Of a stretch of DNA of 64,000 nt, positions 17,211-35,949 are shown in pieces. The notes under the pieces were generated by a model. That model ran no database searches and was not told the origin of the DNA. It was given only the letters and a program-made list of their open reading frames with translations. The translations under genes and the position numbers were made by a program. How positions within the stretch are numbered: the first letter of the stretch is position 1; every line of letters begins with the position of its first letter. Origin of the DNA: Anaerolineae bacterium (lineage in GTDB: Bacteria; Chloroflexota; Anaerolineae; Aggregatilineales; Phototrophicaceae); the NCBI GenBank assembly GCA_022841825.1, contig JALHQT010000003.1:248001-312000 (forward strand), written 5' to 3'.

Positions 17211-19637
17211 TTGTTAATCGACAAAGATAATGGGGCTTATCTCTTGACTGATGTATTCATCTCGTATTCTCGCCAGGACGGAGATTTTGTTCGCAGGTTA
17301 TTTGACATTATTCAAGCCAAAGGACGTGATGCCTGGGTCGATTGGCAAAGTATCGATTATTCAACTAAGTGGTGGGAAGCGATTTGTGAGGGGATTGACC
17401 AGGCTAACAACTTTGTGTTCGTTATCAGCCCTCACTCTCTAGACTCGAAATACTGTCATGATGAACTTGTCTACGCACGCTCCAAGGGCAAGCGTACTAT
17501 TCCACTCTATTTTCAGACAATTGATGAAGCGCAGTGGCTCAGGCAGCCACTTTCTGAACAAGCCAGGGAAAACTGGAAGTTTCTGAACACTATTCAGTTC
17601 ATTAACTGGGACCCTGATCAGAGTCTTGATCGTGTCGCTAACGCCTTAATCGCAACAGCTGACATCAACCCTGAGTATGCTCAATCTCACACCGATTTGC
17701 TGCTTGCGCATAAGGCTTGGAAAAAGGCAGGCAAGAACCAAGGCTTCTTATTGCGGGGTGCGCGTCTTGTTGACGCAGAGCAATGGTTGATCAACTCCGC
17801 TTACAAATCTCCGGCTCCTACAGACGAGCAAAAGGACTTGATTGCCACAAGTCGTACATTTGAAGATGCAGAAAAATCCAGGCTGCGTAATTTGCAGGTG
17901 GTCAGTATCCTGGCGGCGATTACTGCACTCGCAGCTTTTGTCGGGGCTTTCTTCTTCGCTCAAAGCGCATCTGAAGCATCGAGTCGAGAGAGTGCTGCCA
18001 ACACTCAAATAGCCGTGCTTGCCACTGATAGGCAGATTGCACTTGAGGCAGCAGCGACGGCGACCATTGCGCAGGGAGTCTCAATCTATGCTGAATCAAC
18101 AGCGAGTGCGCGAGTTGCGACAGCAACGGTTGCACAAGGGGCTGCTCGCAATGCCGAGTCTACCGCCATTTCACAGGTTGCGACCTCGACATGGGTTCAG
18201 GGGCAAGCGCAGGAAAGCGCCGCCATTGCTATGACCGCCGAAGCTAGTGCACAGGAACAGAGTAGTAATTTTGACCAGATTGTCGAGACGGTATTGCTGA
18301 TTTCAGATGGGCGTTCTATCGAGGCTTTAGACATTATTGATGCTATTCTTGCTCGACGCCCTAATGAAAGTAGAGCACTAATCGCACGCGCATTAGTACT
18401 TGAATCACTTGGGCAGTTTGATGAGGCAATTGAAGTATTTTCGGAAGCGATAGCGATTGATCCGACATCCGCTAGCGCGTACCTCAATCGTGCTAAGTTG
18501 TTCAGATCGACAGGTGACTTGAACAATGCACTTGACGATTACAACCGCGCCGCAGAATTGGATGAATCTACTGCCTGCTTCATATGCAGGGGCGGTTTAT
18601 ATGAACAAATCGGTGATCTTCAAGCAGCCGCCCGCGATTACCAACAAGCTCGAGTTCTGGATGACCAAGACTTCCGTTCTTACGTAGCACTGGCGAACTT
18701 GGCAGTGCAGCGTGGTGACTTTTCAGCTGCGATTCGAATGCTAGATGAAGGTATCGCAACAGTAAGACTAGACTCGGGACTTGTAATACTATACATTTCA
18801 CGCTCAAATCTCCTGACTGACCCGCGCAATCCTAACCCCGACTGGGATAAAGCAGTGTCAGATCTGGAAACGGCTCGACTTGTCCAACCTGAAAACCCAA
18901 CGGTCCTGATTGGTTTGGTCGCACTTCACACTAGTGAACGGACAGTAACTCCAGATTTTCAGGCTGCATTAGAAAATCTCGACCGAGTGATTGAGCTCTA
19001 TCCTCGTAACTACAATTACTATACAGCTCGTGCTGATGCTCTTACGCATGTGCGAAATGAGACTCCAGATTTCGCGAGAGCTATTGAAGATGTGACAACA
19101 GCCATCTCCTTGAATCCTCGCAACGCTGATCTATACCTTGCTAGGGCTAATCTTTATATTGATCAGCGCAACCCCGATCAAAACACGACACTTGCAGATA
19201 GCGATTTCACTACCGCAATAGAGTTCAATGATCGGTACGCGATAGCCTATTATCTTCGCGGAAGTTTTTGGGCTTCGCAAGGCAATTTTCCTGACGCCAT
19301 CAATGATTTATCAAGGATCGTTGAGGTCGATCCCAATGGGTATCAAGGTTACACCGATGCAGCGTTTGAATCTCTCTTCAGCATCTTTCAGGGGTCAAAT
19401 CAACTTCAGCAGGGTATCGAACAGTTTACGCGTCTCATCACACTGACGCCTGAACGCCCTGCAGGTTACATGCTGCGAGGCGCTTTATACTATTTGTCGC
19501 GGGACTTCGAAAATGCCAAAGCAGATTGGGATACGGTCACTCTGACTCTTGGGGTTCCCGTTCAGATAAGATTTCAGGGCTTATATGACGAACTCAATCG
19601 ACGGTTTCCGCCAGCAACAACGACTCTAAGTCCATAA
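17211..19637 (+). CDS. TIR domain - transmembrane - TPR protein
   Basis: 808 residues. The start is TTG at 17211 or TTG at 17244; no in-frame ATG precedes the conserved TDVFISYSRQD. Residues 13-145 form a TIR domain. Glu85 in SKYCHDELVYA is at the position of the catalytic glutamate of NAD-cleaving TIRs. A membrane helix follows at about 230-249. Then comes a roughly 100-residue Ala/Thr-rich repetitive stalk, and at least eight TPR units (about 355-790, such as GQFDEAIEVFSEAIAIDP). The gene is clearly poorer in GC (about 47% in sampled stretches) than its neighbours (about 65%), suggesting transfer. It may be an immune-type NADase or a signalling adaptor. A defence role is inferred from the TIR and the nearby restriction gene. 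Confidence 0.82.
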   Translation: MLIDKDNGAYLLTDVFISYSRQDGDFVRRLFDIIQAKGRDAWVDWQSIDYSTKWWEAICEGIDQANNFVFVISPHSLDSKYCHDELVYARSKGKRTIPLYFQTIDEAQWLRQPLSEQARENWKFLNTIQFINWDPDQSLDRVANALIATADINPEYAQSHTDLLLAHKAWKKAGKNQGFLLRGARLVDAEQWLINSAYKSPAPTDEQKDLIATSRTFEDAEKSRLRNLQVVSILAAITALAAFVGAFFFAQSASEASSRESAANTQIAVLATDRQIALEAAATATIAQGVSIYAESTASARVATATVAQGAARNAESTAISQVATSTWVQGQAQESAAIAMTAEASAQEQSSNFDQIVETVLLISDGRSIEALDIIDAILARRPNESRALIARALVLESLGQFDEAIEVFSEAIAIDPTSASAYLNRAKLFRSTGDLNNALDDYNRAAELDESTACFICRGGLYEQIGDLQAAARDYQQARVLDDQDFRSYVALANLAVQRGDFSAAIRMLDEGIATVRLDSGLVILYISRSNLLTDPRNPNPDWDKAVSDLETARLVQPENPTVLIGLVALHTSERTVTPDFQAALENLDRVIELYPRNYNYYTARADALTHVRNETPDFARAIEDVTTAISLNPRNADLYLARANLYIDQRNPDQNTTLADSDFTTAIEFNDRYAIAYYLRGSFWASQGNFPDAINDLSRIVEVDPNGYQGYTDAAFESLFSIFQGSNQLQQGIEQFTRLITLTPERPAGYMLRGALYYLSRDFENAKADWDTVTLTLGVPVQIRFQGLYDELNRRFPPATTTLSP

Positions 19638-20067: not shown

Positions 20068-20811
20068 CTACATCATCACCACGCCGCCGTTGACGTCCAG
20101 CGTCGCGCCCGTCACCCACGTCATCTCTGGCGTGCAGAATGGCAGGATGCCCTGCGCAATCTCCATCGGCGCTGCCATGCGCTTGAGCGGCACCGTCTCG
20201 ACATACGCCGCCAGCTTGTCCGGCGGCACCGCCTCGAACATGCGCGTATCGACCGCGCCCGGCGCGACCGCGTTGATCAGGATGTTCCAGGGCGCGTAGT
20301 GGCGCGCCAACGACTTGGTCATCGAGAGCACGCCCGCCTTCGTCGCGCTGTAGACGGTCGCGTTGTGGACGCCGCCGACGCGCCCGCCTGTCGAGCTGAC
20401 GTTGACGATGCGCCCGAAGCCGTGCGGCTTCATCGCTTCCGCCGCCGCGCGCGACAGAAAGAAGACCGATTTCATGTTGATGTTCGTGATGCGGTCGAAC
20501 CACTCCTCGGTCATGTCCTCGACCGGGATGCGCGGGCAGATGCCTGCGTTGTTGACCAGGATGTCCAGTTTGCCCCAGCGCGCCACGACATCCGCCACGA
20601 GCTGATCGACCTGGGCAGGCTTGGAGACATCGCACGGCAGGTTCGCCGCCTCGCCGCCCGCCGCGTTGATTTCATCGACGACGGTCTGCGCGACCTGCGC
20701 GTCTATGTCGGACAAGGCGACTTTCGCGCCGTGCTGTGCCAGCAGCGCCGCCGTCGCCGCGCCGATGCCGCGCGCCGCGCCGGTCACGATAGCGATTCGA
20801 TCTTTTAACAT
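20068..20811 (-). CDS. Short-chain dehydrogenase/reductase (SDR, FabG-like)
   Basis: 247 residues, a classical SDR. The cofactor motif TGAARGIG is at 10-17 and NNAG at 87-90. The catalytic triad is Ser140, Tyr154 (YSATK) and Lys158. Asp35-Asp37 after the second strand favour NAD(H). Enzymes of this type next to sugar-acid dehydratases commonly oxidise a sugar, or an alcohol group of a sugar acid. It lies upstream of the Gfo/Idh/MocA gene's 3' end on the same strand, separated by a GTGCG repeat. The role in sugar locus 1 is inferred from context. Confidence 0.88.
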   Translation of the reverse strand: MLKDRIAIVTGAARGIGAATAALLAQHGAKVALSDIDAQVAQTVVDEINAAGGEAANLPCDVSKPAQVDQLVADVVARWGKLDILVNNAGICPRIPVEDMTEEWFDRITNINMKSVFFLSRAAAEAMKPHGFGRIVNVSSTGGRVGGVHNATVYSATKAGVLSMTKSLARHYAPWNILINAVAPGAVDTRMFEAVPPDKLAAYVETVPLKRMAAPMEIAQGILPFCTPEMTWVTGATLDVNGGVVMM

Positions 20812-20930: not shown

Positions 20931-22013
20931 TTACACGTACAGATCCCGCACCTGCACCGGCATCCCACCCTGCGCGGCGGAGCGTGCGGCGGCGTCCAGC
21001 AGTTCGACCGTGTACAAGCCATCGACCGCGCCGGGGAAAAGCGGCTCCGCGCCGTCGAGCAGAATGCCGACGAACTGATCGACCGGGATGGCAGCCGGGT
21101 AGCCGGGGCTGTGACGCGCGATGTGTTCCTGCCGCCCGTCGTGCAGATGCATGAAGAACTCGCCCGTGAAGCCATCGACCAGGATGCGCCCCTTGCTGCC
21201 GTGCAGATGCACCTCGACCGACCCCGGATCGCCGGGGCGCAGGTTGCCGCTGCTGCCGAGGGTCGCCAGCGCGCCCGTGGTCATCCGCACCGCCATCGCA
21301 TCGATGACATCGACCTTCGCCTTCAGGTTGTTCATGAAGGCGGTCACCGTCTCGGCGCGCAGCCCGGATGCCAGATGGAACATCATCGCCGCCAGATGCG
21401 TCACTTGCAGCACGCCCTGCCCGCCGCCCGCCACCGCTGGCTCGCTGTACGTCGCGGGCGTCGGACCCGTAACGGCATAGCCGCCCGCAGGCTCGAACTT
21501 TTCCGGGTGCCCCAGCAGCAGATCATACGTGACGGACGACATGCTGCACGCCACGTACTCGACATCGCCGATCAGCCCGTCGTCGATATAGCGCTTCGCC
21601 TGGGCGACGGTCGGGAGATAGGGGAAGGTGTAGCCCATCAGGATCTTCAGCCCGCGCGCCGCCGCCAGATCGACCAGCGCTTTCGCCTCGCGCGCGTAGA
21701 TGGTCATCGGCTTCTCGATCAGCACATGCAGCCCGGCATCCAGCGCGTCTTTGGCGGCGGGGGAGTGGGCATGATGCGTGGTGGCGATGATCGCGCCCTG
21801 CAAATCGGGATGCGCGGCTTTTGCCTCGGCGACGCTGGTGAAGCAAAGCGCAGTGGGAATGTTGTATTTCGCGGCGGCGGCGCGTGCGGCGTCCGGGTTG
21901 CGGTCAACCAGGATCGTTTTGCCAACACGGGGATGTTCGATCAGCGCCGGGATATGGGCAGTGGTCGCCCACCAGCCAGTCCCGACGACGGCGATAGCTG
22001 CTTTGTCCGACAT
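20931..22013 (-). CDS. Gfo/Idh/MocA-family oxidoreductase
   Basis: 360 residues. The start ATG at 22013 has GGGAG upstream; a much longer open frame continues but is only antisense to the next gene. The N-terminal Rossmann fold AIAVVGTGWWATTAH binds NAD(P). The EKPMT motif (about residue 98) carries the catalytic/cofactor lysine of the family. The C-terminal alpha/beta domain is normal. These enzymes oxidise or reduce hydroxyls of sugars and inositols. It diverges from the enolase-superfamily gene, and its promoter region carries TCRACAA repeats also found at the importer promoter, indicating joint control. Confidence 0.87.
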   Translation of the reverse strand: MSDKAAIAVVGTGWWATTAHIPALIEHPRVGKTILVDRNPDAARAAAAKYNIPTALCFTSVAEAKAAHPDLQGAIIATTHHAHSPAAKDALDAGLHVLIEKPMTIYAREAKALVDLAAARGLKILMGYTFPYLPTVAQAKRYIDDGLIGDVEYVACSMSSVTYDLLLGHPEKFEPAGGYAVTGPTPATYSEPAVAGGGQGVLQVTHLAAMMFHLASGLRAETVTAFMNNLKAKVDVIDAMAVRMTTGALATLGSSGNLRPGDPGSVEVHLHGSKGRILVDGFTGEFFMHLHDGRQEHIARHSPGYPAAIPVDQFVGILLDGAEPLFPGAVDGLYTVELLDAAARSAAQGGMPVQVRDLYV

Positions 22014-22029
22014 AATAATCTCCCGGAAT

Positions 22030-22066
22030 TTGTTGATTCTTGTTGAATTTTTTCTATACTTGTCGA
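22030..22066 (-). promoter_or_regulatory. Helically phased TCRACAA operator array B
   Basis: Read on the minus strand, TCGACAA (22066-22060), TCAACAA (22046-22040) and TCAACAA (22036-22030) are spaced exactly 20 and 10 bp apart. The missing second slot holds a degenerate TAGAAAA. The array lies just downstream of the candidate -10 and ends 16 bp before the start codon, a repressor-like place. It matches array A at 28541. Confidence 0.6.
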
Positions 22067-22121: not shown

Positions 22122-23255
22122 ATGAACTGGCAAAAACCCGGATCGCTGACCATCCAGGCGATTGAGACGGAGGCAATTCGCGTGCCGCTCAACCGTGTCT
22201 ATCGCGGCAGCAAGTATTCGATGCAGAACCGCTGCACCATCATCACGCGCATCCTGACGCATCAGGGCGTCGTCGGCGAAGTCTACACGGGCGATACGGA
22301 TGACGAGCAGCCCGTCATCCTGAAGATCATCCACGACGAACTCGCGCCCGCGCTGGTTGGCATGGATGTCTTCAACACCGAAGGCTGTTGGGAGGCGATG
22401 AAGCCCGCCACCTATGACATCCTGCGCGACCGGGGCGTCGTCATGCAGGCGATCTCGGCGGTCGATACCGCCATCTGGGACACCGTCGGCAAAGCGCTCA
22501 ACATGCCGCTCTACCGCCTGTGGGGTGGCTACAACAACGTGCTGCCGATGACCGCGATTGGCGGCTACTACGGGCAGACGCGCGACGAGCTGGCGCGCGA
22601 GATCGCGGATTATGTCGGCTATGGCGTGATTGGCATGAAGTTCAAGGTCGGCGGGGCGACGCCGGAAGAAGATCTCGAACGGCTCAAGGTGGCGGTCGAA
22701 GTTGGGGGTCCCGGCTTCCGGCTGATGGTCGATGCCAACCAGGGCTACGACCTCCAGCAGACGATCCGCTTCGTGCGGCTGGCGCAGGGCGCAGGGATTG
22801 ACCTGGAGTGGTTCGAGGAGCCGGTGCGCTGGTACAACGACAAGCGCTGGCTGCGGGATGTGCGGTTGGCGACCGGGCTGCCTATCACCGCCGGACAGAG
22901 CGAATACCGCATCGACGGCGTGCGCGACCTGATCGAAGGCGGCAGCATCGACTTCTGCAACTTCGACTCGTCGTGGGGCGGCGGTCCGACGATCTGGCGG
23001 CGCGTGGCGGCGATGTGCAGCATGTACGGCGTGAAGATGGCGCATCACGAAGAGGCGCAGGTCTCGGCGCATCTGCTCGGCAGCGTGGCGCACGCGGCGT
23101 ATGTCGAGTGTTTCCACCGCGACCGCGACCCGATCTTCTGGGACATCCAGACCGAGCGGCGCCCGCTCAAGGACGGCTACTACACGATTTCCGATCAGCC
23201 CGGCTTGGGCATCGAGCTGGATCGCGAATACGTGAAGCGATACAAGGTGTCGTAA
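22122..23255 (+). CDS. Enolase-superfamily sugar-acid dehydratase-like enzyme 1 (mandelate racemase subgroup)
   Basis: 377 residues. An N-terminal capping domain is followed by the (beta/alpha)7-beta barrel. Key residues are Lys173-x-Lys175 in GMKFKVGG, metal ligands Asp204 (VDANQG), Glu232 or Glu233 (FEEP) and Glu261 (GQSEY), and a His pair near 310 in KMAHHEE as general base/acid. The usual reaction is abstraction of the proton next to a carboxylate and loss of water, giving a 2-keto-3-deoxy sugar acid. The plus-strand gene diverges from the oxidoreductase gene and is followed by a second enzyme of the same superfamily. Substrate cannot be named. Confidence 0.85.
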   Translation: MNWQKPGSLTIQAIETEAIRVPLNRVYRGSKYSMQNRCTIITRILTHQGVVGEVYTGDTDDEQPVILKIIHDELAPALVGMDVFNTEGCWEAMKPATYDILRDRGVVMQAISAVDTAIWDTVGKALNMPLYRLWGGYNNVLPMTAIGGYYGQTRDELAREIADYVGYGVIGMKFKVGGATPEEDLERLKVAVEVGGPGFRLMVDANQGYDLQQTIRFVRLAQGAGIDLEWFEEPVRWYNDKRWLRDVRLATGLPITAGQSEYRIDGVRDLIEGGSIDFCNFDSSWGGGPTIWRRVAAMCSMYGVKMAHHEEAQVSAHLLGSVAHAAYVECFHRDRDPIFWDIQTERRPLKDGYYTISDQPGLGIELDREYVKRYKVS

Positions 23256-23365: not shown

Positions 23366-24499
23366 ATGATTATCAAAAAGCTGGATGTATATCCGCTGGA
23401 ATTTCTCGAAGCGGTCGATAACTATTCGACGCGCTATGTCGTGCTGGTGCGCGTCGAGGCGCAGGATGGCACGGTCGGCTGGGGCGAATGTTTCAGCCTG
23501 TTCCGCGAGGCGACCGCCGCCATCGAGGCGCTGATCAAAGCGGGCTTGGGCGATCTCGTCGTCGGCAAAGACGCCTACGACATCGAGACGCACTGGCAGG
23601 CGATGCGCGAGCGCGCCTGGTGGTACGGCGACGCGGGTGGCATCGCGGCATTCGCCATCAGCGCCATCGACATGGCGTTGTGGGATCTCAAAGGCAAGCT
23701 GCTTAAGCTGACCCTGTCGCAGATGCTGGGTGGCAGGCAGGTCGAAAGCCTGCCCGTCTGCGCCAGCAGTCACCCAAAAGCCTCGAAGATCGACGACATG
23801 GCGGATGAACTGGCGGGGCATATCAAAGCTGGCTTCAAGTTCGTCAAGGTCGGCTTCGGTAAGAAAGGCGAGTCGAACCTGGGCGTCGATGCCGAGCGCG
23901 ACATCCACTTCGTCAGGACGGTGCGCGCGGCGATTGGCGCGGAGGCAGGTTTCATTGTCGATGTCGGCGCGCGCTGCCGCTGGGATATTCCACGCGCGGT
24001 CTACACCGCCCAGGCGATGCATGAACACAGGCTGACGTGGCTGGAAGACCCGTTTCATCCCGATAACTTCAACGCTTTTCATCACCTGCGCGCTGCCGTG
24101 CCAGGGATGCGCGTCGGGTTTGGCGAGCGGCTCTACAACGTCTACGACTACCAGCGCGCGTTGGAGGCGGACATCTGCGATGTGCTGCTGATCGACGCCG
24201 GGCGTGCCGAGGGCGTGACTGGGATGTGGAAGGTGATCCAGATGGCGGCGCGGCGTAACGTGGCGATCAACGCCCACTCGTTCAGCAGCGCGATCAACAC
24301 GGCGGCGAGCATTCATCTGTCGATGTGCGCGCCGCTGCGCCTGCTCTTCGAGCTGAAGCCGATGGAGACGGCGATGCATCACGAGCTGGTGCGCAACCCC
24401 GTCTGGCATGTCGATGGGCAGATTTCCGCGCCGGAGGGCTACGGCTTGGGCGTGGACGTGATGGAGGACGCCGTCAAGCGGTTCACGATCCGGTTCTGA
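23366..24499 (+). CDS. Enolase-superfamily sugar-acid dehydratase-like enzyme 2
   Basis: 377 residues. ATG 23366 has AAAGG upstream; a longer open frame upstream only shadows the previous gene. Metal ligands are Asp199 (IVDVG), Glu227 (WLEDPF) and Glu254 (GFGERL). Lys158/Lys161 (KFVKVGFG) and His in INAHSFSS supply acid-base groups. It is only distantly similar to the preceding paralogue, so the two probably act on different sugar acids or in sequence. The same strand and 110-bp spacing suggest one operon, although a repeat lies between. Confidence 0.85.
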   Translation: MIIKKLDVYPLEFLEAVDNYSTRYVVLVRVEAQDGTVGWGECFSLFREATAAIEALIKAGLGDLVVGKDAYDIETHWQAMRERAWWYGDAGGIAAFAISAIDMALWDLKGKLLKLTLSQMLGGRQVESLPVCASSHPKASKIDDMADELAGHIKAGFKFVKVGFGKKGESNLGVDAERDIHFVRTVRAAIGAEAGFIVDVGARCRWDIPRAVYTAQAMHEHRLTWLEDPFHPDNFNAFHHLRAAVPGMRVGFGERLYNVYDYQRALEADICDVLLIDAGRAEGVTGMWKVIQMAARRNVAINAHSFSSAINTAASIHLSMCAPLRLLFELKPMETAMHHELVRNPVWHVDGQISAPEGYGLGVDVMEDAVKRFTIRF

Positions 24500-25623: not shown

Positions 25624-27342
25624 TCACCGCCCGCCGTTCTCGTTCGGGTAATGCAAATCGACGTTGCTGGGCGAGATGAAGGTGTGTTCGACATATGCGG
25701 CAGGCGGCACCGGCTCGCCGCTCAGAATTTTCAGCGCGATGTCGATCAGCCGCTCGCCGTAGCGTTCGGGATGGAACGCCGTCGAGCCGACAATGCGCGT
25801 GTGCTCATTGCGCAGCTCGTCGCGCATCCGTCGGTCCGCCCCCTGACCGACGATCAGCACCTCGTGCGCGCGGTAGGTCTTGCGCGCTGCCTCCAGTGCG
25901 CCGAGCGCCGCGTCGTCGTTGAAGCAGATGACGGCGATGCGGCGGTTGCGCGGCAGTCCATCCAGAGCACTGGTCATCACCGCCTCGCTGATGCCGCTGG
26001 TGTTGCCGCTGTCGAGCGTGATGATACGCGCCGGATCAATCGTGCCGATGATCGACTCGACGCCGTCGCGCTGCCCCTGCATCCGGCTGGCGGGGAGCTG
26101 CCCGGCGCGCGGGTGTTCCAGGACGATCAGCGTATCAATTTCGCCGCTCCATTCGCGCTGAATTGCCTTGCCGAGTTCCTCGCCCGCGACAAAGCCGGTC
26201 TTGTAGTTATCGACGCCGAAATGCGTCGCGCCGACCATCGGAATATCGACCGCGATCACGGGAATCGCGTGCTGCGAAAACAGGTGCATGAGCTGGCTGC
26301 CGACCGTCTCGTCGATCTGGAACTCGATCATCAGGTCGATGCCCTGGGCGATGAAATCATCCGCCAGCGTCAGCGCCTGCGAGCCGCTTAACTGGTTATC
26401 GGCGATGATCAGTTCGATCTGCCCGTGGGGCTTCGCCGCCAGTTCCAAGCCGCGCCGCACATCGCGCCCGAAGGAGATTTCCTCGGTCAGGTTGGCGAAG
26501 CCGATCCGGTAGCGCGTCGCCTGGGTGTTTTCCGGCGTGAAGGTGGTGGTCGTGTGGTCGCTGCACACCGTGACGGTCAAGCCCGCTTCGCAGGCGCGCT
26601 GGACGTTGTCCGTCGAGACTTCGCTGTCGGTCAGCAGGTGGCTGATGGCGGCGGTATCGGCGAACGAGGTCAACGCGACGCGGTCGAACTTGGTGTGATC
26701 GACCAGCGCGACCACGCGCTGTGCGCTGCGCACCATCAGCGCCTTCAGCTCCGCCTGCGCGATGTCCGTCTCCATCAAGCCCGCCTCCAGCGAAAAACCT
26801 GCACAGGAGACGAATGCCGTCCGCACGTACAGCCGTTCCAGCATCTGCTGCCCCAGCAAACCCGTGATGACGTTGCCATCCTTGCGGACGATCCCGCCCA
26901 GCAGGATGACCGTGTTCAGGCGCTGTTCCGCCAGCCGCCGCGCGACCTCCATCCCGTTGGTGATCACGGTCAGGTCACGGCGCGTCGAAAGATAGCTGAC
27001 CATATGTAGAACGGTCGTGCTGGCGTCGAGCAGGATCGTATCGCCATCCTCGACCATCGTCGCCGCCCACTGGGCGATGCGCGCTTTGGCATCGGCATTG
27101 GCGAGTGTGCGCTCTTCGATCAGTTGGGCTGAGAAGGCGCGCTGTGTACGCGCGACCGCGCCGCCGCGCACGCGCTTGATCTGGTTTTCGTCGTCGAGCA
27201 CCGCCAGGTCGTTGCGAATCGTGCCTTCGGACACGTTGAGCATCTCTGCCAGATCGGTGACTTTGATGCCGGATTGTTCTTCCAGGATGCGCACGATCAT
27301 CTGGCGGCGCTCATAGGTAGTCAGTGTCTTCACGACGCTCAC
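25624..27342 (-). CDS. DeoR repressor fused to a periplasmic-binding-protein sensor domain
   Basis: 572 residues, about twice a normal DeoR protein. Residues 8-62 are the DeoR winged helix (ERRQMIVRILEEQSGIKVTD...VSEGTIRNDLAVLD). Residues 78-255 are the usual DeoR phosphosugar-sensing domain (ILLDASTTVLHM, VITNG, ILLGGIVRKDG). Residues 278-565 are a type-I sugar-binding-protein domain without signal peptide. That last domain is plainly homologous to the importer's binding protein at 28667: RIGFANLTEEI against VIGFANLTEDI, and PVIAVDIPMVGATHFG against PVIAIDIPMPGATFFG. It probably represses the neighbouring import and catabolic genes and may respond to both free sugar and sugar phosphate. The dual sensing is inference. 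Confidence 0.88.
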   Translation of the reverse strand: MSVVKTLTTYERRQMIVRILEEQSGIKVTDLAEMLNVSEGTIRNDLAVLDDENQIKRVRGGAVARTQRAFSAQLIEERTLANADAKARIAQWAATMVEDGDTILLDASTTVLHMVSYLSTRRDLTVITNGMEVARRLAEQRLNTVILLGGIVRKDGNVITGLLGQQMLERLYVRTAFVSCAGFSLEAGLMETDIAQAELKALMVRSAQRVVALVDHTKFDRVALTSFADTAAISHLLTDSEVSTDNVQRACEAGLTVTVCSDHTTTTFTPENTQATRYRIGFANLTEEISFGRDVRRGLELAAKPHGQIELIIADNQLSGSQALTLADDFIAQGIDLMIEFQIDETVGSQLMHLFSQHAIPVIAVDIPMVGATHFGVDNYKTGFVAGEELGKAIQREWSGEIDTLIVLEHPRAGQLPASRMQGQRDGVESIIGTIDPARIITLDSGNTSGISEAVMTSALDGLPRNRRIAVICFNDDAALGALEAARKTYRAHEVLIVGQGADRRMRDELRNEHTRIVGSTAFHPERYGERLIDIALKILSGEPVPPAAYVEHTFISPSNVDLHYPNENGGR

Positions 27343-27376: not shown

Positions 27377-27485
27377 ACTCTTGTAGGTTTGTAATCCACC
27401 AAATTATACTGATTGTCCCGCTCCCCGTTGCACATAATCCACCCGAAGAGAACCATCGCAACGATACCTGAACGTGAGAAACTTC

Positions 27486-28433
27486 ATGAGTGAGACCCAT
27501 CGTCAGCCGTCCGCGTCGTACCCGCCAGACTTCGCTGCCAACTATCGCCGGCAGTACAATCTGTCGCCCGACAGCCAGGTCACGGAAGCGATGATGGCGG
27601 AGCATTTTGAGACCGAAAAGGGGTATCGTATCCGCCTGCTGGCTGCTCCGCCCGACCAGCGGGCGGCAGTCTTTGAAGCATGTTATTCGGAACTCTATGT
27701 GCGCTTTCCTTGGTTGTATCAGGGCGCAGATCCAGCCGACCGAAAGATGGATTATGTGACCTGGGGGCATCTGCTGCCGCAGGAGCCGCAGGACATTTAC
27801 GAGATCGGGTCGGGCAACGCGGGGCTGGCGCGTTATCTGGCAAGCCTGGGACATCACGTCACCGCGACCGAAGTCTCGTCCGAGCGCCGGGAGAAATCGG
27901 CACTGGATACCCCTGGACTGCGATGGGCGACGACGGATGGCGTCCACTTGCTGCATTACGAGACTGCGGAGTCGTATTCGGCTGTGATCTCGAACCAGGT
28001 GATCGAACACCTGCATCCCGAAGACCTGCCGATCCACCTCGAACATGCGCAGCAGCTCCTCAGGCGTGGGGGCTGCTATATCCTCTCGACGCCGCACGCA
28101 GCCGTCGGTCCTTCCGATATAGGGCGTGTGTTTGAAGCCGATACGCTGGTCGGGATGCACCTGAGAGAATACAGCTACGCAGAGCTTGAGCGGCTGGGCA
28201 TCGCAGCCGGATTCGTGAGCGCCAGCGCGGTGCTGCGCATCCCACGCAAGGTGCGCGCGCTGCTGCCGCATGTGGCAACCTCTGTTGCCAGCAGGCGCTA
28301 CTTTCAGTATCTCAAGCTGCTTGAGCGTCAGCTTGCCTCGCTGCCGACGCAGAAGCAGCGCCGTTCGCTGGGGCGCAGGGCGCGCGCCATACTGTTCTCG
28401 GACAATCTCTTCATCGTTCTGCGCAAAGCCTGA
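27486..28433 (+). CDS. Class I SAM-dependent methyltransferase
   Basis: 315 residues from ATG 27486; a GTG four codons earlier is an alternative. SAM motif I is DIYEIGSGNAGLARYLASLG (about residues 105-124). Motif II acidic is TATEVSSE, and VISNQVIEHLHPED with LLRRGGCYILSTPH follows. This matches the Methyltransf_11/23 group that acts on small molecules, lipids or glycans. It diverges from the regulator gene and precedes the importer operon by 233 bp. The C-terminal basic tail (KQRRSLGRRARAI) could contact membrane or nucleic acid. Substrate unknown; it may be unrelated to the sugar locus. Confidence 0.82.
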   Translation: MSETHRQPSASYPPDFAANYRRQYNLSPDSQVTEAMMAEHFETEKGYRIRLLAAPPDQRAAVFEACYSELYVRFPWLYQGADPADRKMDYVTWGHLLPQEPQDIYEIGSGNAGLARYLASLGHHVTATEVSSERREKSALDTPGLRWATTDGVHLLHYETAESYSAVISNQVIEHLHPEDLPIHLEHAQQLLRRGGCYILSTPHAAVGPSDIGRVFEADTLVGMHLREYSYAELERLGIAAGFVSASAVLRIPRKVRALLPHVATSVASRRYFQYLKLLERQLASLPTQKQRRSLGRRARAILFSDNLFIVLRKA

Positions 28434-28540: not shown

Positions 28541-28577
28541 CCGACGAATTTCAACAAATATCGACAAATTTCAACAG
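28541..28577 (+). promoter_or_regulatory. Helically phased TCRACAA operator array A
   Basis: Four related heptamers in register at exactly 10-bp steps: CCGACGA (28541), TCAACAA (28551), TCGACAA (28561), TCAACAG (28571). A regulator would meet one half-site per helical turn on one face of the DNA. The same core and spacing occur at 22030-22066 upstream of the Gfo/Idh/MocA gene. Confidence 0.65.
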
Positions 28578-28666
28578 AAAGGAATCGACACCAGCGTAAA
28601 ATCCACGATTCGGTTCGTTCCGACAAAAACGCTTGCGAAAGATATTACGAATCAGGAGACCCTCTC

Positions 28667-29674
28667 ATGAAGTTTTCTCGCAAACTGTCCCTCGTCTTCG
28701 CTCTGGTTGTCATGCTCCTCGTCCCGTTGTTCCCCATGGTCAAAGCACAGGACTGCCCGACCGCCCAGGACGAATATGTCATCGGCTTCGCCAACCTGAC
28801 CGAAGACATCGTCTTCACCCAGCTCGTGCGTGAAGGCATCCTCGCCGCCGCCGAAGAAGCGGGCAATGTCGAAATCGTGCTGGCGGATAACCGCCTCGAC
28901 GGCGCGACCGCGCTCGCCAACTCCGATAACTTCATCGCGCAGGGCGTGGATGGTGTCATCCACTTCCAGACCGACGAAGCGTTCGGTAACGTCATCATGA
29001 GCCGCTTCCGCCGCGAAGGCATCCCGGTCATCGCCATCGACATCCCGATGCCCGGCGCGACCTTCTTCGGTGCCGATAACTACAACGCCGGTCGCCTGGC
29101 GGGCGAAGCCCTCGGCGAGTGGGTGAACGAGAACTGGGACGGCGAAGCGAATGCCATGCTCGTCCTCGAACTGCCGCAGTCGGGTCCCATCCCGGCAGCC
29201 CGTATGCAGGGTATGGAAGAAGGCTTCCAGGAAACTGTCGAGACCCCGGTCGCGGACGATATGATCTTCCGTCTGGACAGCAAGAACACCCAGGAAGAGT
29301 CGTTCCAGGTCGTCAGCGATACGCTGCCCACCATCCCCGACGCTGAGAAGATCGTCGCCATCACCATCAACGATGGTACGGCGCTGGGCGTGATCGCGGC
29401 GGCAGAAGCGGCGGGACGCGCCGAACAGATCATGGTCGTCGGTCAGGGTGCTGATCCGTCGGGTCAGGAAGCCATCGTGGCAGAGAACAGCCGCTACCTG
29501 GGCGCGACGGGCTACTTCCCCGAACTGTACGGCTTCCAGATCATCCCGGCGATGATCGACCTGCTCGAATGCCGCGCGGTGGCACCCGCCATCTACGTCA
29601 ACCACGTCTTCATCAACCAGGAGAACGTCTGCGAGCTGTACGCGGAAGCCTGGCCCGATTTCTGCGCGGAGTAG
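28667..29674 (+). CDS. Ribose-type sugar ABC importer, binding protein
   Basis: 335 residues. ATG 28667 has AGGAG upstream. A Sec signal peptide (KFSRKLSLVFALVVMLLVP, cleavage near KA-QD) leads into a type-I periplasmic-binding fold: VIGFANLTEDIVF, LADNRLDGATALAN, PVIAIDIPMPG, MVVGQGADPSG. It captures a sugar outside the membrane and delivers it to the permeases encoded next. The same domain reappears as the sensor of the DeoR-type regulator at 25624. An SGNH esterase, an isomerase and a mutarotase downstream suggest a deoxy- or pentose-type sugar. Confidence 0.92.
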   Translation: MKFSRKLSLVFALVVMLLVPLFPMVKAQDCPTAQDEYVIGFANLTEDIVFTQLVREGILAAAEEAGNVEIVLADNRLDGATALANSDNFIAQGVDGVIHFQTDEAFGNVIMSRFRREGIPVIAIDIPMPGATFFGADNYNAGRLAGEALGEWVNENWDGEANAMLVLELPQSGPIPAARMQGMEEGFQETVETPVADDMIFRLDSKNTQEESFQVVSDTLPTIPDAEKIVAITINDGTALGVIAAAEAAGRAEQIMVVGQGADPSGQEAIVAENSRYLGATGYFPELYGFQIIPAMIDLLECRAVAPAIYVNHVFINQENVCELYAEAWPDFCAE

Positions 29675-29894: not shown

Positions 29895-30908
29895 ATGCAG
29901 AACACCGCGACCGCAGCCCCGTCCAGAGGCATGATGCCGCAGCTTGGGCGCTGGCTGCGCGGCGAACGGCTGACAACGCTCAACCTGTTCGTCACCTTTG
30001 TCATCATCTGCATTATCTTCGCGTCACAGGCGCAGTTCTTCCTGACGCTGGAAAACTTCGTCAACATCGGGCGCACGCTCGGCGTGGTCGGCATTGTCTC
30101 GATTGGCATGACGCTGGTCTTGATCACGGGCGGCGTCGATATTTCGGTCGGTTCGGTCGCGGCGCTTTCCAGCGTCGTCGCCAGCATCCTCTGGCTGCAA
30201 GCAGATGTGCCGCTGTTCCTGGCGACTGTGATCGGTTTGCTCGCCTGTACATTCGTCGGCTTCCTGAATGGCTACCTGATCGCCGTCGTGCGCATCAACC
30301 CGCTGATTACGACACTCGCCTCCTTTTCGATAGTGCGCGGGCTGGCGTTCGTGCTCTCCAATGGGCAGACCAACCAGCTCAACGACGAGGCGTTCAAGTT
30401 TCTCGGTCGCGGCGAAATCGCGGGCTTTCCCGTCTCGCTGCTGCTGATGATCGCCCTCTATATCCTCTTCTTTTTCATCATGCATTTCACGCAGTTCGGG
30501 CGCAACCTCTACGCCATCGGCGGCAGCCCGGATGCCAGCCGTCTGGCGGGCATCGCCGTGCGCCGCCACCTGCTGATCGTCTATACGCTCTCCGGCTTCC
30601 TGGCGGGCTTGGCGGGCATCATCATCGCCTCACAGCTCGCGTCCAGTGCGCCACGCGCGGCGACCGGGCTGGAATTCACGGTCATCGCGGCAGTCGTGCT
30701 GGGTGGCACCAGTCTGAGCGGCGGCAAAGGCTCGCTGATCGGTACGCTGGTCGGGGTTTTCATCCTGCGCGTGCTCGATAACGGCTTGGTGCAGACGCGC
30801 GTCTCGTCGTTCTACCAGGACGTGGTCAGTGGGGCGGTGCTGCTGCTGGCGGTCGGTTTCGACCAGCTTCGCCTCAGGCTGACCTCCACCTTCGGAGGCA
30901 AGTCATGA
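29895..30908 (+). CDS. Ribose-type ABC importer permease 1
   Basis: 337 residues with about nine or ten membrane helices and the BPD_transp_2 signatures SIGMTLVLITGGVDISVGS, NGYLIAVVRINPLITTLA and GGTSLSGGKGS. It forms one half of the channel of a ribose/xylose-class importer. It overlaps the ATPase gene by the 4-bp ATGA, showing translational coupling. Confidence 0.92.
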   Translation: MQNTATAAPSRGMMPQLGRWLRGERLTTLNLFVTFVIICIIFASQAQFFLTLENFVNIGRTLGVVGIVSIGMTLVLITGGVDISVGSVAALSSVVASILWLQADVPLFLATVIGLLACTFVGFLNGYLIAVVRINPLITTLASFSIVRGLAFVLSNGQTNQLNDEAFKFLGRGEIAGFPVSLLLMIALYILFFFIMHFTQFGRNLYAIGGSPDASRLAGIAVRRHLLIVYTLSGFLAGLAGIIIASQLASSAPRAATGLEFTVIAAVVLGGTSLSGGKGSLIGTLVGVFILRVLDNGLVQTRVSSFYQDVVSGAVLLLAVGFDQLRLRLTSTFGGKS

Positions 30909-32422
30909 GCGCGCCGCTGCTGGAAATGCGTCATATCGACAAGAGCTTTTACGGCGTCAAGGTGCTTGACGACGTGTCGATTGATCTGTTCGCGGGCGAG
31001 ACCGTGGCGCTGCTGGGCGAAAACGGCGCGGGCAAATCGACGCTCATCAAGATCCTCAACGGCGATTACACGCGCGACAGCGGGGATGTCATGCTCGATG
31101 GGCAGCCCGTCCACTTTGCCGAGCCGCGCGACGCCGAAGCGGCGGGTATCCGCATGATCTATCAGGAGCTGCATTACGCGCCGGAACTGAGCGTGGCGGA
31201 GAATCTGCTGCTCGGTCGCCTGCCACATCGTCAGGGCGCGTTCGGCTGGATGGTCGATTGGAACGCCACGCGCGAAAAGGCACGTGAGGCGCTCAAGCTG
31301 CTCAACGTGGATATCGACCCGATGACGAAGATGCGCGACCTGAGCGTGGTCGAGCGCGAAATCATCGAGATCGTCAAGGCGCTCAGTCGCAAGGCGCGCA
31401 TCATCGTGATGGACGAGCCGACCGCCGCGCTGACGCCACCGGAAGTTCAGCGCTTGTTTGGCATCATCCGCGACCTGTGCAAGCAGGGCATCGGTATTAT
31501 CTACATCTCGCATCGCCTTGACGAAGTGTTTCAGATCGCCCATCGCGTGACGGTGCTGCGCGACGGTAAACACGTCGGCACGCATCCGATTGCCGAGGTG
31601 ACGCACAAGGCGCTGGTCAAGATGATGGTTGGGCGCGACATCGAAGAGCGCGCCGAAGTCCGCAAAAACGCCGCCGCCATCCAGTTGGGCGAGGTCGTGC
31701 TGGATGTGGAAAAGCTAAGCAAGCAGGGCGCATTCGAGGACATCAGTTTGCAGGTGCGCGCCGGGGAAATCGTCGGCTTGTTCGGATTGCTCGGTGCGGG
31801 GCACAACATCCTGACGCAGACGATCTTCGGCGTCGAAAAGGCGGACAGCGGGCAGGTGCGTATCGGCGGGCAGGTCGTGCAGATCGCCTCGCCGCAGGAC
31901 GCCAAGCGGGCGGGCATCGGCTTCGTGCCGCTGGATCGCAAGGTGAACGGGTTGGTCATGGGCATGAGCGTGCGCAAGAACATCACGCTTTCCAACTGGC
32001 GGACGCTGGCACCGCTGGGCATCTTCAGCCAGGGCAAAGAGATGCAGAACACACATCACTGGGTCGATCAGCTCGGCATCCGGATGGCGGGCGGCGTCGA
32101 GACGCATACGCGCTACCTGAGCGGCGGCAACCAGCAGAAGGTCGTGCTGGCGCGCTGGCTGGAAGCGAATGTGCGCGTGCTGCTGCTGAATGAGCCAACC
32201 TGGGGCGTGGACGTGGGCGCGCGCTCCGATATTTATGACCAGCTTGAAGCGCTGGCGGCAAAGGGGTTGGCGATCCTGATGGTGTCGTCCGACATCGAAG
32301 AGGTGCTGACCGTCTCGCATCGCATCCTGACGATCTATAAGGGGCGGCTGACGGGTGAGTTCATGCAGGGCGATGCGACGCAGGAAAAGCTGCTGCATAC
32401 GGCGGCGGGAGGGGTGTCATGA
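30905..32422 (+). CDS. Ribose-type ABC importer ATPase (two nucleotide-binding domains)
   Basis: 505 residues, RbsA/MglA length. The first domain has Walker A GENGAGKST at 38-46, signature-like LSVVEREIIEI and Walker B IIVMDEPTAAL. The second has a degenerate A loop (GLFGLLGAGHN), a clean LSGGNQQK signature and LLLNEPTWGVDVGA. Such asymmetry is normal in this family. It powers uptake of the sugar bound by the protein from 28667. It overlaps both flanking permease genes by 4 bp. Confidence 0.94.
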   Translation: MSAPLLEMRHIDKSFYGVKVLDDVSIDLFAGETVALLGENGAGKSTLIKILNGDYTRDSGDVMLDGQPVHFAEPRDAEAAGIRMIYQELHYAPELSVAENLLLGRLPHRQGAFGWMVDWNATREKAREALKLLNVDIDPMTKMRDLSVVEREIIEIVKALSRKARIIVMDEPTAALTPPEVQRLFGIIRDLCKQGIGIIYISHRLDEVFQIAHRVTVLRDGKHVGTHPIAEVTHKALVKMMVGRDIEERAEVRKNAAAIQLGEVVLDVEKLSKQGAFEDISLQVRAGEIVGLFGLLGAGHNILTQTIFGVEKADSGQVRIGGQVVQIASPQDAKRAGIGFVPLDRKVNGLVMGMSVRKNITLSNWRTLAPLGIFSQGKEMQNTHHWVDQLGIRMAGGVETHTRYLSGGNQQKVVLARWLEANVRVLLLNEPTWGVDVGARSDIYDQLEALAAKGLAILMVSSDIEEVLTVSHRILTIYKGRLTGEFMQGDATQEKLLHTAAGGVS

Positions 32423-33459
32423 AATCTGCGACCAGTCGCAGCCTGGCGGAGATCGCCAGCCTCGTCGTGATGCTGGCGGTGATCGTGATTTTCTTCGCGC
32501 AGGCATCGCCCGTCTTCCTGACGCAGCGCAACCTGGATAATACACTGCTCGACATCACCACCATCGGCATTCTCGCCGTCTTCACGACCATGCTGATGAT
32601 CGGCGGCGGTCTCGACCTGTCGATCGGCTCGACAGTCGCGCTGTGCGGCGTGGTGATCGGCGCGCTGCAGAGCACCTGGGGCATCCTGCCCGCTGCCGGG
32701 TTCGCCATCGTGGTGGGGGCGCTGGTTGGCTTGCTCAACGGCTTCCTGGTGACGTATGTCGGCATTAACCCGCTGATCACCACGCTGGGGATGCTCTCGA
32801 TTGCGCGCGGTCTGGCATTCGTCTTCTCGGACGGGCTGACGATCCCGGTTTTCGACCTGGAAGGCACGCAGATCGACGCCTACAACACCTTCACGCAGTT
32901 CGGCGAGGGGCAAATCCTGGGCTTCGCCACGCCAGTCTTCGTCATGTTCACGCTGTTCATCGTCGGCATGCTGGTGCTGCAATTCACCTCCTACGGGCGG
33001 GCGATGTACGCCATCGGCGGCAACGACAAGGCGAGCCAGCTCGCGGGCTTGTCCGTCCGCCGCTATCGCATGACTGCCTACATGCTGTCCGGCTTGAGCG
33101 CGGGCATCGCGTCCGTGCTGCTCACGTCGCGTCTGTACGCCGCCGACCCGCGCGCCGCGCCTGCCATGGAGCTGACGGTCATCACGGCGGTCGTCCTGGG
33201 CGGCATCAGCTTGGCAGGCGGCAAGGGCACGCTGATCGGTACCGCGCTCGGCGTGCTGATCCTGACGACGCTGCTCAACGGCATGAAGCTCCTCAGCACC
33301 TCGACCGACGCCCAGAACATCGCCCAGGGCATTGTCCTGCTGGTGGCGGTCGGCTTGGATCAACTGCGCACGCGCAACATTAACTGGTCGCGCTGGCTGC
33401 GTGGCAGCCGCGTCGTGCCGGGCGGGGCAGGCGCGAAGACGGCGGCGGGAGGCGATTGA
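32419..33459 (+). CDS. Ribose-type ABC importer permease 2
   Basis: 346 residues, second BPD_transp_2 permease: TTMLMIGGGLDLSIGSTVALCG, NGFLVTYVGINPLITTLGM and GGISLAGGKGTLIG. The presence of two different permeases points to a heterodimeric channel. It starts inside the ATPase stop (ATGA) and ends 3 bp before the SGNH gene. Confidence 0.92.
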   Translation: MKSATSRSLAEIASLVVMLAVIVIFFAQASPVFLTQRNLDNTLLDITTIGILAVFTTMLMIGGGLDLSIGSTVALCGVVIGALQSTWGILPAAGFAIVVGALVGLLNGFLVTYVGINPLITTLGMLSIARGLAFVFSDGLTIPVFDLEGTQIDAYNTFTQFGEGQILGFATPVFVMFTLFIVGMLVLQFTSYGRAMYAIGGNDKASQLAGLSVRRYRMTAYMLSGLSAGIASVLLTSRLYAADPRAAPAMELTVITAVVLGGISLAGGKGTLIGTALGVLILTTLLNGMKLLSTSTDAQNIAQGIVLLVAVGLDQLRTRNINWSRWLRGSRVVPGGAGAKTAAGGD

Positions 33460-33462
33460 GAG

Positions 33463-34296
33463 ATGGGACTTACCACCGACCAGCAGTTCGCCATCGACTT
33501 CAACCTGCACGAGCTTTCCGCCCAGGCGGGGCTGCACATCCCGCCGAATGCCGAAGCGCAGATCTACGGCGTGCCGGAGGACGAGATCGCCGCCTATCAG
33601 GCGGGGGTCGATGCGCAGAACGCCGCGACCGCGCGCGACATTGAAGCGCTGCCGGAAGCGGCAGCGTTTCTGGCGCGCTTCAGCGCCGGGCAGCGTGTGC
33701 TGTTTCTGGGCGACTCGATTACGACCTATCGCTACAGCTATGCGCGTGTGCTGCGCCACCTGCTGGAGCCGCGCGGCGTGAGCGTGAGCAACCGCGCCTA
33801 TTCGGGCTATACCTCGATGCATGGCGTGGAGCTGACGTACACGCAGTGCATCGATGCGCAGCCGGATAATGTTTTCGTCAAGTACGGCGTCAACGACAGC
33901 AAGCGTTTTGGCGCAGCCGACTCCCCGTTCTTCGTGGGCGTGGACGAGTACGCCAGCAACATCCGCATGATCGTGCGTGGCTTCCAGCAGCATACGAAGG
34001 CACGCATCACGCTGCTGACGCCGACTCTGCTTGTCGAGCCTGTGGTCGCGGCGGATGAGGTCATTCGCTCGCTGCGCATTCACTGGTTCAACCGCGATCT
34101 GAGCGCGCGTGGCAGCGTGATCGCGGAGATCGCGCAGGCGATGGGCGTCGAATGGGTCGATCTGCGCGCCTGCCTGGGCGATCCACCGGAGGTGTCGCTG
34201 TACTGCGCGGACGGGCTGCATCCGAACGTCGAAGGCGAGAAGCGTATGTTGATAACGATGATGAACGGGACTCGCCATGCGTCCTCCCACCCATGA
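33463..34296 (+). CDS. SGNH/GDSL-family hydrolase
   Basis: 277 residues, cytosolic (no signal peptide). GDS with Ser85 (FLGDSITTY), block III Asn144 (YGVNDSKRF) and block V Asp250-x-x-His253 (ADGLHPN) give the complete catalytic set. It probably removes acyl groups from the imported sugar; its gene sits in the importer operon with only 3 bp spacing. The last residues, HASSHP, and the stop codon are encoded inside a four-hairpin repeat beginning near 34284, so the natural C-terminus has been altered slightly by that element. Confidence 0.85.
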   Translation: MGLTTDQQFAIDFNLHELSAQAGLHIPPNAEAQIYGVPEDEIAAYQAGVDAQNAATARDIEALPEAAAFLARFSAGQRVLFLGDSITTYRYSYARVLRHLLEPRGVSVSNRAYSGYTSMHGVELTYTQCIDAQPDNVFVKYGVNDSKRFGAADSPFFVGVDEYASNIRMIVRGFQQHTKARITLLTPTLLVEPVVAADEVIRSLRIHWFNRDLSARGSVIAEIAQAMGVEWVDLRACLGDPPEVSLYCADGLHPNVEGEKRMLITMMNGTRHASSHP

Positions 34297-34491: not shown

Positions 34492-35949
34492 ATGCCGCTG
34501 CGTAAACAGGCGAAAATTGGCGTTTTTGGGATTGGGCTGGCGGCGTACTGGCCGCAGTTTGAGGGATTGAAAGCGCGCCTGGAAGGCTACCAGCGCGATG
34601 TCGAGGCGAAGCTGGTCGGCATGGGCGCGGAGGTTGTCTCCGCCGGGTTGGTCGATGACGCGCCGGGCGCGGTCGCTGCGGGCGATCTGTTCGCGCGCGA
34701 AAACGTGGACATGATCATTTGCTACGTCGGCACCTATTCCACCTCGTCGCAGGTATTGCCCGCTGTCCAGCGCCGCCGCGCGCCCGTGCTGATCCTCAAC
34801 CTTCAGCCGGTGCCCGCGCTCGACTACCTGGAGACGGACACGGCGGAATGGCTCGCCAACTGCTGCGCCTGCTGCGTGCCGGAGATTAGCAACGCTTTTG
34901 CGCGGGCACGCATTCAGTTCAACGTCGTGTCGGGCTTGCTGCACGAGGTCGATGGACACGCCGGGCAGTACTATCAACGTGCCTGGGCGGAGATCGCCGA
35001 TTGGGTGGGCGCGGCGTCGGTCATGCGCGACCTCTCGTACAGCCGCATCGGCTTCCTGGGGCATACGTACCCCGGCATGCTCGACATGTACTCGGATTTC
35101 ACGATGCATCATGCGCAGTTGGGCGTACACATCGAAGTGCTGGAAATGGACGACCTGCACAAGCGCGTCCAGGCGGCGAGCGAGGCGGAGATCCAGGCGA
35201 AGATCGCCGAGATACAGGGCACCTTCGAGATTGTCGGGCGCGGGCGCGACAAGATTTCGCAGGACGTGACACCGGAAGCGCTGCACTGGACGGCGAAGGT
35301 GGCGGTCGGGCTGGATAAGCTGACGGACGATTTCGCGCTCAACGGGCTGACCTACTACTATCGCGGCTTGGATGGCAACGCCAACGAGGAGCTGGGCGCG
35401 AGCCTGATCATCGGCAATTCGCTGCTGACCGGGCGCGGCATCCCGGCGTCGGGCGAGGGCGACCTGAAGACCTGCATCGCCATGCTGATGATGGACAGGC
35501 TGAACGCGGGCGGCTCGTACACCGAGTTCTACGCCATGGACTTCAACGAAGACTTCATCCTGATGGGGCACGATGGTCCCGGTCATGTCGCCATCGCGGA
35601 AGGCAAGCCGGTGCTGCGCGGGCTGGGCTTGTATCATGGCAAGCGCGGCTATGGGCTGTCGGTTGAGATGAAGGTCAAGACGGGACTGATCACGATCCTC
35701 GGCTGCACACAGACTGCCGAGGGTAAGCTCAAGCTGCTCGCCTCTGAAGGCGAATCGCTGCCGGGCGACACGATGCAGATCGGCAATACCAATTCGCGCC
35801 TCAGATTCAGCCTCGACCCGGCGACCTTCATGGATCGCTGGTGCGAGCATGGTCCGACGCATCATGTCGCGCTCGGCGTCGGGCATCAGTTGGGGCGCAT
35901 CCGCAAGCTGGCGCGCTTGCTCGGGTTGGAGTTGGCGGTGGTGGGCTGA
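34492..35949 (+). CDS. L-arabinose/L-fucose isomerase-like sugar isomerase
   Basis: 485 residues, the length of AraA-type isomerases. The N-terminal Rossmann-like half begins IGVFGIGLAAYWPQFEGL, with VDMIICYVGTYSTSSQVLP and PVLILNLQPVP, as in arabinose-isomerase relatives. The C-terminal beta-barrel carries metal/substrate residues (GEGDLKTCIAMLMMD, EDFILMGHDGPGH, and the C-terminal HGPTHHVALGVGH). It most likely interconverts an aldose and a ketose after uptake through the adjacent importer. The next gene resembles rhamnose mutarotase, so a 6-deoxy or L-sugar is plausible. Confidence 0.8.
   Translation: MPLRKQAKIGVFGIGLAAYWPQFEGLKARLEGYQRDVEAKLVGMGAEVVSAGLVDDAPGAVAAGDLFARENVDMIICYVGTYSTSSQVLPAVQRRRAPVLILNLQPVPALDYLETDTAEWLANCCACCVPEISNAFARARIQFNVVSGLLHEVDGHAGQYYQRAWAEIADWVGAASVMRDLSYSRIGFLGHTYPGMLDMYSDFTMHHAQLGVHIEVLEMDDLHKRVQAASEAEIQAKIAEIQGTFEIVGRGRDKISQDVTPEALHWTAKVAVGLDKLTDDFALNGLTYYYRGLDGNANEELGASLIIGNSLLTGRGIPASGEGDLKTCIAMLMMDRLNAGGSYTEFYAMDFNEDFILMGHDGPGHVAIAEGKPVLRGLGLYHGKRGYGLSVEMKVKTGLITILGCTQTAEGKLKLLASEGESLPGDTMQIGNTNSRLRFSLDPATFMDRWCEHGPTHHVALGVGHQLGRIRKLARLLGLELAVVG

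Follow-up and report, generated by a model that had tools for sequence, protein, structure and literature searches.

Repressors of sugar genes are generally assumed to possess a single effector site. Proteins of the DeoR family are commonly about 250-280 aa long and end after their effector domain, DeoRC, a length that is typical and not strictly defining, and those of the LacI/GalR family have another helix-turn-helix, palindromic operators and no DeoRC domain. Chimeras have been described as well: AraR of Bacillus subtilis joins a GntR head to a LacI-type domain (PMC4218819), and regulators have been engineered by fusing a binding protein to a DNA-binding domain (PMC6079105). The closest characterised relative of the protein described here is the DeoR-type RhaR of Chloroflexus aurantiacus, which binds a 38-bp fragment carrying four tandem TCGAAA sites; of the unphosphorylated sugars assayed, 2 mM L-rhamnulose releases it from DNA, and L-rhamnose and glucose do not (Rodionova et al. 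2013, PMC3870299).

We analysed a window of 64,000 nucleotides (the whole stretch of DNA under study) from an Anaerolineae bacterium. It encodes a regulator that, with 572 aa and a further domain, exceeds the usual DeoR length and belongs to an old family of predicted DeoR-type repressors with a complete additional domain, probably sugar-sensing, whose relative is the binding protein of the importer. As in LacI/GalR proteins, a binding-protein fold stands as probable cytoplasmic sugar sensor on a DNA-binding head, but the helix-turn-helix and the predicted operator type differ and DeoRC is present. Like AraR, the regulator is a natural chimera of a winged helix and a sugar-binding fold; AraR, however, has two domains and lacks its own family's effector domain, while the regulator keeps DeoRC. 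The engineered regulators are synthetic, whereas this one is natural, old and provided with an additional third domain. Ribose-type binding proteins (2ioy, RbsB; PF13407) share the fold and key cleft residues with that domain, but they are secreted and serve transport, whereas that of the regulator forms part of a cytoplasmic fusion. The layout was not found described in the open-access full text of PMC, the corpus searched, and the earlier note on this DNA likewise knew of no example.

Architecture of the regulator

In a Pfam scan the regulator matches HTH_DeoR at its N-terminus (PF08220, 47.6 bits, cut-off 21), DeoRC (PF00455, 162.4 bits, cut-off 31.8) and Peripla_BP_4 (PF13407, residues 280-543, E 2.8e-24, 86.5 bits, cut-off 35.1), and no HTH_LacI head was matched (Table 1). 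The N-terminus is thus the DNA-binding domain, and by eye the protein shows no signal-like stretch. Its DeoRC profile resembles the effector domain of E. coli DeoR (7l6l, E 1.2e-19), and the DeoRC motif (LDASTT, TNG, LLGG and DHTKF) is entirely present. Confidence in the AF2 model is high inside each domain (mean pLDDT 89.6), but the inter-domain angle is uncertain (pTM 0.70). In a fold search spanning residues 276-568 only, the third domain aligned with sugar-binding proteins, many of which were ligand-bound, at a Z of about 29 over about 285 residues. Furthermore, 127 of 290 residues (44%, E 3e-79) are identical between this domain and the partner binding protein of the importer. The Pfam scan and this identity confirm what the earlier note had read here, a complete DeoR protein followed by a binding-protein domain of about 290 residues, and the strings it listed as shared with the importer's protein (IGFANLTE, FIAQG, IPVIA) are present.

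The possibility that a sequencing or assembly error had joined two genes, which that note had named among its refutations, has nothing found in its favour and is refuted: a full-length relative (L095) is 88% identical and the same single frame recurs in 77 distinct three-domain sequences, which excludes a sequencing join. Between the window copy and L095, dN/dS is 0.006, 0.053 and 0.051 domain by domain, values that are approximate as dS exceeds 1, and this shows that purifying selection acts on all three domains.

Table 1. Coordinates of the regulator, its domains, the predicted operators and neighbouring genes in the window.
Feature	Position	Strand	Remarks
Three-domain regulator	25624..27342	-	one open frame, GTG start, 572 aa; AF2 model
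HTH_DeoR winged helix, residues 12-67	27142..27309	-	Pfam PF08220, E 1.4e-12
DeoRC effector domain, residues 82-240	26623..27099	-	Pfam PF00455, E 1.1e-47
Sugar-binding-protein domain, residues 276-565	25648..26517	-	Pfam PF13407 and structural match
Predicted operator, importer promoter	28541..28580	+	four 10-bp direct repeats: CCGACGAATT TCAACAAATA TCGACAAATT TCAACAGAAA
Predicted operator, divergent promoter	22027..22066	-	four 10-bp direct repeats: TCGACAAGTA TAGAAAAAAT TCAACAAGAA TCAACAAATT
Partner binding protein of importer	28667..29674	+	N-terminal signal-like stretch by eye
Importer permease, AraH-like	29895..30908	+	
Importer ATPase, AraG-like	30905..32422	+	
Second importer permease	32419..33459	+	resembles first permease in BLAST of relatives
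GDSL esterase-like protein	33463..34296	+	
Isomerase, arabinose/fucose isomerase kind	34492..35949	+	weak matches
MR_MLE sugar-acid dehydratase-like enzyme 1	22122..23255	+	
MR_MLE dehydratase-like enzyme 2	23366..24499	+	start codon picked by eye
GFO/IDH/MocA oxidoreductase	20931..22013	-	
SDR dehydrogenase	20068..20811	-	
Methyltransferase-like gene	27474..28433	+	recognised by eye; Pfam scan at 1e-10 gave no match

Distribution of the family and origin of the third domain

Of 61 genomes sampled from the same genus, family and order, 18 have a near full-length copy and at least two more a copy cut by a contig end; in 400 genomes drawn from the phylum the number is 4, the window's own included. 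From 84,980 species genomes 80 loci were obtained, nearly all of them full or contig-cut three-domain copies and the last a binding protein alone, from Paenibacillus; once duplicates were removed, 77 distinct three-domain sequences remained. The layout is no single oddity: there are at least 77 members, many of them beside rhamnose operons.

Nearly all hosts belong to the Chloroflexota (Anaerolineae and relatives, Caldilineales, Roseiflexaceae, Ktedonobacteria), and a few to the Deinococcota; the other phyla named in some record titles may reflect misbinning. The family is present in 3 of 111 Deinococcota genomes, and these three copies nest inside the Chloroflexota copies in both the third-domain and the DeoR-half trees, which suggests transfer. 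In 149 Paenibacillaceae genomes no fusion was detected at the threshold used, and one held a related binding protein. Two sets of candidates were set aside, namely frames of 780-950 aa (L177, L178), which are binding proteins behind a spurious open frame, and a 576-aa frame (G000:C13), in which DeoR lies at the C-terminal half and Pfam matches no other domain.

In the third-domain tree the 21 partner binding proteins form a single clade (99/90) and every fused domain lies outside it, so the gene now next to the regulator was not the source of its fused domain. The origin proposed in the earlier note, fusion with a duplicated binding-protein gene, therefore holds as a fusion, while a local duplication of the neighbouring gene is rejected by this tree, which gives no support to a recent one. 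The split between fused domains and partner proteins is old. The data are compatible with one clade uniting all fused domains (p-AU 0.168), and the split may have run in either direction, a transport protein being captured into a fusion or released from one.

Most fusions cluster in the tree of the DeoR half, and two genuine standalone DeoR genes (L189 and L012) fall among them; no trace of a third domain was found near either, and they may represent losses of it. A further standalone DeoR in the fusion clade (L190) is cut by a contig end. In a Roseiflexaceae genome a standalone DeoR gene (L173, 4997-5770, minus strand) lies divergent to a three-domain gene.

Gene neighbourhood and predicted operators

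L-rhamnose genes (RhaS, RhaA or RhaI, rhamnulokinase, by NCBIfam models) adjoin 34 of the 77 family loci, a sister binding protein with its importer adjoins 20, the window among them, both adjoin 2 and neither adjoins 21 within the flanking DNA examined. The partner gene is divergent to the regulator in 21 of the 22 loci with a sister importer. In most of these relatives regulator and importer operon are directly divergent, unlike in the window, where the methyltransferase-like gene sits between them. Two members (L082, L085) adjoin sulfatase and oligopeptide-type importer genes, a hint of sulfated sugars. The window also holds an 808-aa frame (17211-19637, plus strand) with, by eye, a TIR domain and then many tetratricopeptide-like repeats.

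The predicted operators, of the tandem direct-repeat type looked for in DeoR proteins, are built of the 10-bp unit TCRACAAATT. One array ends 86 bp before the first start codon of the importer operon; the other sits between the divergent oxidoreductase and dehydratase genes and is kept at the dehydratase promoter of three close relatives (L067, L095, L100). The two-repeat pattern has 6 matches in the window against 0.08 expected, and across the 5.9-Mb genome arrays were found at these two promoters only, at the threshold used, the control giving 0. In the family, arrays lie upstream of 28 of 74 genes compared with 0 of 74 when shuffled, and in 20 of the 22 loci with a sister importer; the strict pattern is missing from 24 of 32 testable rhamnose-type loci and from all 20 testable loci of unsorted type. 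Since the methyltransferase-like gene parts the array from the regulator, self-regulation is not evident in the window.

RhaR (Caur_2290, DeoR family) is represented in our set by a 274-aa protein recognised by gene order (L185, 10654-11478). It is 42% identical to the regulator over the DeoR half and a 10-bp array stands in front of its gene; being two-domain with such an array, it is a relative that shares the predicted operator kind without the third domain. Both proteins have a DeoR head and DeoRC, and both are accompanied by arrays of four direct repeats of about 10 bp, which in our case are predicted operators, and by a local regulon, likewise predicted here, that comprises a sugar ABC importer together with genes of catabolism. 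RhaR differs in its two domains, with no binding-protein domain, and in its inducer, L-rhamnulose. An orthologue would have two domains and stand beside L-rhamnose genes, whereas the regulator has three and adjoins an AraGH-like importer, and in the DeoR-half tree the RhaR proteins of Chloroflexales group in a separate clade. In the same C. aurantiacus-like operon, the rhamnose-type binding protein (L185, 4838-6970, minus strand) is a tandem double with near-identical halves in a 710-aa frame.

Proposed effector sites

Our main reading, to which we give a probability of roughly 0.6, is that the regulator acts in the cytoplasm as repressor of a local, two-promoter sugar regulon and uses both its third domain and DeoRC as effector sites; that there are two such sites is most likely. 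The winged helices would bind the arrays, one helical turn per repeat, at the promoters of the AraGH-like importer operon and of the divergent oxidoreductase and dehydratase genes. The imported sugar would then close the C-terminal binding-protein domain inside the cell and loosen the grip on DNA, as is the case for the same fold in LacI. DeoRC would be the second effector site, probably for the ketose from the isomerase, and the two sites would act jointly.

Across 71 fusions, twelve residues in and around the expected cleft of the third domain hardly vary, and the same twelve occur in nearly all partner proteins. Four of them (F291, D366, R420, N475) align with residues through which ribose-binding proteins contact their sugar. 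Between fusions and partners 42 positions are conserved in both groups and none is conserved but different. This argues that the extra domain is probably a second sensor, as the earlier note had proposed, although such conservation could also reflect the needs of folding or another ligand. It also makes improbable a domain that no longer binds sugar and serves dimerisation or importer contact: binding-protein folds do dimerise in LacI, but such a role sits poorly with a cleft almost invariant and nearly identical to that of the transport proteins.

DeoRC is more variable, its mean pairwise identity (0.439) being the lowest of the three domains (0.489 and 0.500 for the others). Its motif is complete in most copies besides that of the window, lost in the Roseilinea-like and Roseiflexaceae groups, where the third domain is intact, and altered in part elsewhere. 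With the near-invariant cleft, the picture is of a constant sensor in the third domain and an optional one in DeoRC. These losses and the low conservation would also suit a binding-protein domain that is the sole working sensor, with DeoRC structural or oligomerising and the whole protein a LacI analogue with a DeoR head. We consider this unlikely, as the motif is complete in most copies, the window copy is under purifying selection and the two-domain RhaR would sense through its only effector domain. Doubtful to a similar degree is the proposal of the earlier note that DeoRC reads the phosphorylated product and the third domain the free sugar. DeoR proteins often bind sugar phosphates and many family members adjoin rhamnulokinase-like genes, but an FGGY kinase was looked for and not found around the window's copy or beside most of its sister-importer group, and RhaR answers to free, unphosphorylated L-rhamnulose (PMC3870299).

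Within the two-site reading we tentatively see these proteins as natural two-input repressors, in which the captured binding domain reads the imported aldose and DeoRC its ketose, sensing having passed from DeoRC to the captured domain in some lineages; this may well be so but falls short of probable. With two effector folds, both complete, in one natural protein, the joint use of two signals in one pathway becomes directly testable, the array sites being ready DNA for the purpose, and lineages whose DeoRC is worn form a series in which sensor replacement can be followed. Five related members (L115, L119, L124, L127, L129) share an altered DeoRC motif in which LVGSNKIG or LVGANKIG replaces DSSK.
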